Positions 32,186 through 32,692 of a stretch of DNA of 64,000 bases are shown here, in pieces. The DNA is taken from contig CAIQOV010000033.1 in the NCBI GenBank assembly GCA_903873585.1, forward strand, positions 1-64,000. The letters are read 5' to 3'. The position numbers and the translations under genes are program-made. The notes beneath the pieces were generated by a model. That model was not told the DNA's origin, did not search any database, and was given only the letters and a program-made list of their open reading frames with translations. Numbering within the stretch: the first letter of the stretch is position 1; every line of letters starts with the position of its first letter. Source of the DNA: an uncultured Rhodobacterales bacterium. Its GTDB lineage: Bacteria; Pseudomonadota; Alphaproteobacteria; Rhodobacterales; Rhodobacteraceae.

Positions 32186-32587
32186 CTAGGGTTGGTCCGC
32201 CGCGCGCGCAATATCGGGGCGAAAGTCGGGGGATAGCAACCGGTCCAGCAGGGGCGACATATCCTCGATCGCCTCGGCCACCACATGCACCACACCCGCA
32301 TCGCGCTGCAACCGACCCGTGACGCGCAGCAGGCGCCCCGATATGACAGCACGGCGAAAGCGTTCATAGATCGCGGCCCAGACCACCACATTGGCCACGC
32401 CCGTCTCATCCTCTAGCGTCAGAAAGATCACGCCCTTGGCCGTGCCAGGGCGTTGGCGCACCAAAACCAGCCCGGCCACACAAACCCGCGCGCCGTGGCT
32501 GGGTTCATCCAACCGCGCGGCCGGCAGCGCCGCAGGCGGGCGCGGCCAAGTGTTGGGGCGCGGGGTCGGGGTAAGCCAATCTGACAT
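32186..32587 (-). CDS. Stand-alone OB-fold protein equal to the C-terminal domain of DnaE2/ImuC, SOS-controlled
   Basis: 133 residues from ATG 32587. Residues about 35-115 ([18 protein letters not shown], then [13 protein letters not shown] and [17 protein letters not shown]) match the OB-fold that ends DnaE2, the error-prone alpha-subunit-like polymerase of the imuA-imuB-dnaE2 mutasome. All polymerase, PHP and finger domains are absent. Residues 1-34 (Pro-rich) are not recognisable. An intact LexA box ends one base before the ATG, so expression should be SOS-induced. It could be a deletion remnant of an imu cassette or a functional single-stranded DNA-binding or competitor protein. The intact frame argues for some retention. 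Confidence 0.75.
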
Positions 32588-32588
32588 A

Positions 32589-32603
32589 GAACAAAAATAG
32601 AAC
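32589..32603 (-). promoter_or_regulatory. LexA (SOS) box GAAC-N7-GAAC
   Basis: Read on the minus strand it is GTTC TATTTTT GTTC, the exact direct-repeat LexA operator of Alphaproteobacteria. It covers a TATTTT -10 (32599-32594), which lies 17 bp after a TTGCCC -35 (32622-32617). The ATG of the OB-fold gene begins one base after the box. Confidence 0.85.
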
Positions 32604-32692
32604 AAACCCCGCGCAAGGGCAAGGCATCAAACGGGGGTAGAATCCGCGCCCCCCTTGCGCTAGGAACAAGCAAACCAAGATACGAGGGCACC

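Follow-up and report, generated by a model that had tools for sequence, protein, structure and literature searches.

In many bacteria, damage-induced mutagenesis is the work of DnaE2 mutasomes. The window, a stretch of 64,000 nucleotides (64 kb) from a member of the Rhodobacterales, contains a gene for only the last domain of this polymerase, an OB-fold, which raises the question of where the remainder of the enzyme is encoded and what the domain does by itself. A sequence-only reading had noticed the gene and proposed either that an imuA-imuB-dnaE2 cassette was deleted from just after its promoter to the end of dnaE2, or that the OB-fold was kept as an SOS protein that binds DNA or blocks mutasome assembly. 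The sequence comparisons collected here argue for a real and widespread fission of the SOS polymerase, in which the OB-fold survives as a gene of its own, preceded by a LexA-type box.

Table 1. Features of the OB-fold locus in the window (forward-strand positions).
Feature	Position	Strand	Evidence
Free-standing DnaE2 OB-fold gene, 133 aa, ATG start	32186..32587	-	ORF; NF004225 943-1041 only; AF2 OB-fold
OB-fold barrel, residues 34-109	32261..32488	-	AF2 strands E34-45 to E99-109; Foldseek OB domains
WPRPP, residues 14-18, candidate docking motif	32534..32548	-	Conserved in split OBs, not in fused DnaE2
LexA-type operator GTTCTATTTTTGTTC (gene sense), 1 nt before ATG	32589..32603	-	Perfect GTTC-N7-GTTC
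Putative -10 element TATTTT, inside the LexA box spacer	32594..32599	-	Conserved hexamer positions in 75 rows
Putative -35 element TTGCCC, 17 nt upstream of the -10	32617..32622	-	TTG and spacer conservation
degP-type serine protease gene, other side, frequent neighbour	30614..32119	+	54/80 loci (best 80 of at least 583)
Divergent 2Fe-2S ferredoxin gene, conserved neighbour	32693..33016	+	77/80 loci (best 80 of at least 583)

The OB-fold gene, its promoter and its neighbours

The strongest family match of the 133-residue protein is to the NCBIfam DnaE2 model NF004225, with residues 21-119 aligned to profile positions 943-1041 of 1047 (115.6 bits, E 1.9e-33). DnaE1-type models reach only 2.5e-06 at best, and the Pfam OB-fold family PF01336 also matches (E 2.8e-13). 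By profile comparison, as the sequence-only reading had recognised, the protein is the C-terminal OB-fold of DnaE2. The PHP, Pol3, fingers and HhH domains and the acidic motif are absent from it and are found in a separate core gene. An AF2 model computed with a 70-row alignment is an OB-fold with a mean pLDDT of 89.4 and a pTM of 0.80; a 14-sequence alignment had given a pLDDT of 59, as opposed to 89 with 70 rows. Foldseek matches this model to the OB domains of AspRS, RPA and CST.

Ahead of the barrel is a short WPRPP motif, and residues 11-30 around it are modelled with high confidence. Of 47 rows of split OB proteins, those that reach this site have the tryptophan in 41/42 and the second and third prolines in 43/43. 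In 23 fused DnaE2 rows the same site has no majority residue, and the motif is a candidate for docking. The C-terminus reads DQP in 30 of 101 free OB proteins (the best 80 of at least 583 relatives plus 21 of a second set). The dN/dS values of the OB gene are 0.016-0.158 for G000 against eight relatives, and the highest among the printed pairs is 0.219 (G007-G003); the core gives 0.054-0.137 over seven relatives. Some residues of the OB protein are invariant across genera. Judged by these ratios the gene is kept by purifying selection, which bears out the earlier suggestion that the fold was retained.

The locus was compared with 80 others, the best 80 of at least 583 relatives ordered by their similarity to the free OB; fused forms are not expected in a set chosen in this way. 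By title these belong to Rhodobacterales genera (including Ruegeria, Roseovarius, Salipiger, Tropicimonas, Gemmobacter, Rhodovulum and Planktomarina), to Rhodobacteraceae MAGs and to unplaced Alphaproteobacteria. Their OB frames run from 128 to 467 aa (that of L140 continues to a contig edge), and the proteins chosen from them have 110-154 aa. The ferredoxin gene is near the OB gene in 77 of these best 80 loci, the two frames being at most 300 nt apart in 75 of the 77 and about 1.9 kb apart in two. Because the ferredoxin gene adjoins the OB gene so regularly, the site can be taken as orthologous. For degP the count is 54 of the best 80 within the fetched flank, several flanks being shortened.

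In the window GTTC-N7-GTTC occurs four times against 1.2 expected, and the motif by itself is weak evidence; the other three occurrences are all within long ORFs. Conservation makes the stronger case for the operator that had been reported directly upstream. A perfect box is found at the OB gene in 79 of the best 80 loci and in 20 of the 21 genomes of the second set. In 74 of the best 80 it ends 1-3 nt upstream of the chosen ATG. The same loci contain 5903 ATGs followed by 100 open codons, and a perfect box 1-3 nt upstream is found for 74 of them, the same number as OB genes. The OB gene therefore appears to be under a LexA-type operator, with LexA binding and damage induction predicted.

The spacer of the box resembles a -10 element. 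In 75 rows (the 74 loci with a box 1-3 nt before the ATG, and the window) hexamer positions 1, 2 and 6 are T in 72, A in 73 and T in 66. A TTG is found 16-18 nt upstream of the hexamer in 62/75 rows, compared with a background of 8%. No promoter was found in the window when strict sigma-70 criteria were applied. Since the -10-like hexamer is under the LexA box and the ATG is at the expected start, a leaderless SOS mRNA is suggested, with transcription starting at the ATG or within about two bases of it. Since the OB and ferredoxin genes diverge from the interval that holds the box (32588-32692), LexA might affect ferredoxin expression too.

The rest of the mutasome and the split point

On the contig of the window (C33), models for DnaE2, ImuA and Y-family polymerases find nothing besides the OB gene, in agreement with the earlier observation that no imuA, imuB or polymerase domain is nearby. 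The whole genome (3.2 Mb in 55 contigs) does contain the remainder. Contig C26 encodes a DnaE2 core that covers positions 4-938 of NF004225 and ends there, complementary to the 943-1041 covered by the OB protein. From the first family-fitting ATG it has 940 residues, followed by a stop. The PHP, Pol3, finger and HHH_6 families are matched in it and the OB family is not; its acidic motif reads PDIDVDF and its clamp motif (so named after PMC3919608) PLPLF. The contig continues for about 18 kb past the core, so the gene is not cut by a contig end. A perfect GTTC-N7-GTTC is found 11 nt upstream of it.

Further along C26, at a distance of about 14 kb, is the gene for an ImuB-like protein of 559 aa (IMS E 7.9e-12); an ImuA-like protein (222 aa) is encoded on C23. 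Both genes have a perfect box. The ImuA-like match gives 38 of 150 bits, far below the curated cut-off, which no genome scanned reaches, the Caulobacter control included. The imuA-like, imuB-like, core and OB genes are all apart from each other. Deletion of the cassette, one of the two origins first proposed, is contradicted by these genes, each with its LexA box. The genome may thus encode all parts of imuA-imuB-dnaE2, although not as one cassette.

The boundary between the two halves is consistent. Split cores end shortly after HPxALLR, and the OB proteins start in the stretch that follows HPxALLR in fused DnaE2. Among 29 split cores PDIDVDF is found in all and LPLF in 28. A LexA-like box with at most one mismatch lies within 120 nt of 28/28 split cores scanned, and 14 of these boxes are perfect; random stretches of the core loci give 7% and 1%, respectively. 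The cores scanned did not include that of G028, whose start is in a different reading frame, or the partial L077 and L078. One feature of the fused enzyme is missing from both halves. The C-terminal motif SRDF[H/R], which passages of PMC3919608 report in about 77% of DnaE2, ends most full-length rows of the DnaE2 alignment. It is found in none of the 101 free OB proteins (the best 80 of at least 583 and 21 second-set genomes, some shared) and in none of the 29 split cores. With no such tail on either half, the split enzyme may not assemble like the fused one.

Distribution, grouping and joint loss of the two halves

The split state is common in the family. In 110 Rhodobacteraceae genomes of at least 95% completeness, counted from the matches listed, 44 have an OB-less core, 43 a free OB and 42 both. 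Two have the core only (G439, G457), one the OB only (G446) and 65 neither (Fisher p 8.7e-27 for co-occurrence among the matches listed). The listing extends down to the strong matches, and a fragmented core may have escaped it. A frameshift or assembly error as the source of the short gene is rejected by the two-gene state in 42 of these 110 genomes (among the matches listed) and by the free OB in the best 80 of at least 583 loci. G006 and G430 have the split pair and a fused DnaE2 as well.

Some assignments required a closer look. G471 and G475 were counted as free OB, with a perfect box upstream in both. G476 and G480 (OB frames of 322 and 380 aa) are fused genes ending in SRDFH that are contig-cut or broken, and were counted as neither. 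The free OB of G471 (L266, C42:83786-84073), in a 400-aa frame behind a perfect box, has an extended tail that resembles that of fused DnaE2 but lacks SRDFH; it is perhaps an early stage of the split. In G439 the core is present and no OB was found, and the ferredoxin locus was also not found in the assembly. In G457, with a core and no OB match, just 222 nt of contig remain upstream of the ferredoxin start. G446 (7 contigs, 100% complete) has no DnaE2 core, its two matches among those listed being DnaE1 and the OB. Its OB gene (L159/L182, C4:2083555-2083938) is intact and has a LexA box, and its ImuB is 63% identical to that of the window genome. This lone exception could reflect either a recent loss of the core or a role of the OB independent of it.

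A second survey, of the window's own genome and 60 relatives, gave a similar picture. A free OB is found in 21 of the 61, and in 19 of the 21 the core ends near position 938. G010 has only an N-terminal part of the core, and in G013 (86% complete) no core was found. G024 was excluded as a 22nd free-OB genome: its core and OB are at two ends of one 217,585-base contig, and the apparent split is read as one gene across the origin of a circle.

Outside the family there is less to report. A search of 385 alphaproteobacterial genomes gave 177 with a match. The comparison outside the Rhodobacteraceae covered frames below 400 aa (longer incomplete frames such as G232 and G096 were left out) and contains, among the matches listed, eight OB matches. 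Seven of these have their start at most 1 kb into a contig, on the + strand, which is what a fused gene cut by the contig end would show. The eighth, in the alphaproteobacterium G336 (L160), belongs to a fragmented imuA-imuB-dnaE2 region that is apparently a cassette in decay. Among plasmids, 832 records match the OB query and none covers 80% of it. Annotations are available for 22 of the 25 matches listed, all as error-prone DNA polymerase, so the plasmid copies among them look fused.

Each half forms a single group. In a 40-row tree the 15 split cores are one clade with 100/100 support, next to the fused enzymes of G019 and G032. In a 70-row OB tree, built on few columns, the 47 split OBs form one group with support of 88. 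The fission probably had a single origin. Gene content was followed on a DnaE1 species tree of 67 genomes (survey genomes with DnaE1 coordinates, a few members of the genus and four outgroups), made by a quick method and with four rows odd in composition. On this tree the core label changes 19 times, at least 12 of them on supported branches. The OB follows the core in 10-11 of 12 independent contrasts and does the opposite in none (sign test p 0.001-0.002), a pattern of repeated joint loss. Fused DnaE2 goes the opposite way to the core in about 10 of the 12, so a fused cassette tends to go with the absence of both halves.

Single genomes illustrate these changes. For example, G017 has two fused DnaE2 and no split core, and retains at the ancestral site, beside its ferredoxin gene, a decayed OB remnant (L185:2140-2300) without a perfect box. 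In G011 and G014, of the window's genus, ferredoxin and degP are at the site and no OB is found; G011 has a fused DnaE2 instead of the core. In G019 (L161-L163) imuA-like, imuB-like and unsplit dnaE2 genes are at three places, with a perfect box in or beside each frame. This dispersed and unsplit state looks like dispersal before fission. Erill et al. 2006 are said to have written on cassette dispersal and may report dispersal of the imu genes. Dispersal is not universal in the order, since in passages of a study of Phaeobacter inhibens (PMC10883770) imuB and dnaE2 are said to share an operon and have the highest rate correlation of any pair.

What the free OB-fold may do

The OB protein is probably a separate subunit that completes the split DnaE2 in trans. 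DnaE2 (ImuC), the error-prone polymerase of the SOS mutasome, would have undergone a single fission, at the linker that follows the (HhH)2/clamp-binding region, in an ancestor of part of the Rhodobacteraceae. The core (PHP, Pol3, fingers, HhH and clamp motif) and the OB-fold would have become two unlinked genes, each with its own LexA-type box. Upon DNA damage both halves should be made together. Most likely the OB protein would rejoin the core, or ImuB, on the clamp and would supply the grip on single-stranded template that fused DnaE2 carries in cis.

A small, self-contained OB-fold could instead be an independent SOS single-strand-binding factor, similar to SSB or RPA14 and no longer working with the DnaE2 core. 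Archaeal RPA14 and other single-OB subunits that bind ssDNA do use one OB-fold as a separate subunit. They belong to another family, however, and the sequence match of RPA14 to the OB protein is weak (E 0.0036). Retention of the OB without a core in G446 would also suit such a factor, but in the independent contrasts the OB follows the split core, and where a fused DnaE2 replaces the core the OB has decayed (G017) or is absent (G011), which makes this independence unlikely. G446, with OB and ImuB and no core, would equally suit an OB that works mainly with ImuB (or ImuA) and brings the mutasome to ssDNA instead of acting as the missing piece of the core. In AlphaFold models of the M. tuberculosis complex, described in passages of PMC12926913, ImuB contacts the PHP and the (HhH)2 region of DnaE2, beside the split point. 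The co-loss of OB and core weighs against ImuB as the main partner, and the idea overlaps with that of a trans subunit; as a separate explanation it seems rather unlikely.

Isolated domains can act dominantly, and the OB gene is under a LexA box like that of the core. On these grounds it might be an off-switch that competes for template or ImuB and so limits mutasome assembly, the blocking role first suggested. The lone loss of an inhibitor would sometimes be expected, but only two OB-less split cores are found in the 110 genomes (among the matches listed), and the site is missing or cut in those assemblies. Because the OB gene is retained and lost together with the core, an inhibitor is less likely than a trans subunit, and we consider it very unlikely. 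For a non-functional leftover of a deleted cassette nothing speaks beyond the small size of the gene. The dN/dS values against G000, the invariant residues across genera, the conserved box and promoter and the presence of the rest of the system practically refute it.

Compared with the DnaE2/ImuC of an imuA-imuB-dnaE2 cassette, the split enzyme retains the sequence, the domains (both halves counted), the LexA-type boxes and the catalytic and clamp motifs. It differs in having its OB-fold in an unlinked gene and no SRDF[H/R], and in that imuA, imuB and the core are apart. Passages of Timinskas et al. (PMC3919608) describe several DnaE2 sequences without an OB domain; there no separate OB gene is mentioned, and Rhodobacter, Rhodobacteraceae, Rhodobacterales and Ruegeria are absent. 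A 2026 survey (PMC12926913) describes, in passages on DnaE2X systems, a split ImuB (iPolY and ImuB-C). There, too, a mutasome protein is encoded in two pieces, but the protein is ImuB and not DnaE2, and its main text is without 'OB domain', 'OB-fold' or Rhodobacter. No description of a free DnaE2 OB gene was recognised in passages of the open-licence full-text literature (subscription papers being outside this scope), which includes work on Dinoroseobacter (PMC6473078, PMC9426580) and Caulobacter (PMC1839093) and PMC10421592. A test of DnaE2 OB-fold function was likewise not met in the literature passages covered.

The split genes offer a natural separation-of-function construct, in which the OB can be deleted or produced while the catalytic core is left intact. 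They also suggest a reason for the OB-less DnaE2s in the survey: at least in the Rhodobacteraceae, the domain would be a separate gene and not lost. More tentatively, and with some doubt, a large part of this family may have a fully dispersed mutasome, whose polymerase is a heterodimer of the core and an exchangeable OB made from a leaderless, LexA-locked transcript. If this is true, the level of OB could tune the processivity or lesion bypass of DnaE2 separately, a control that a fused DnaE2 would be without.
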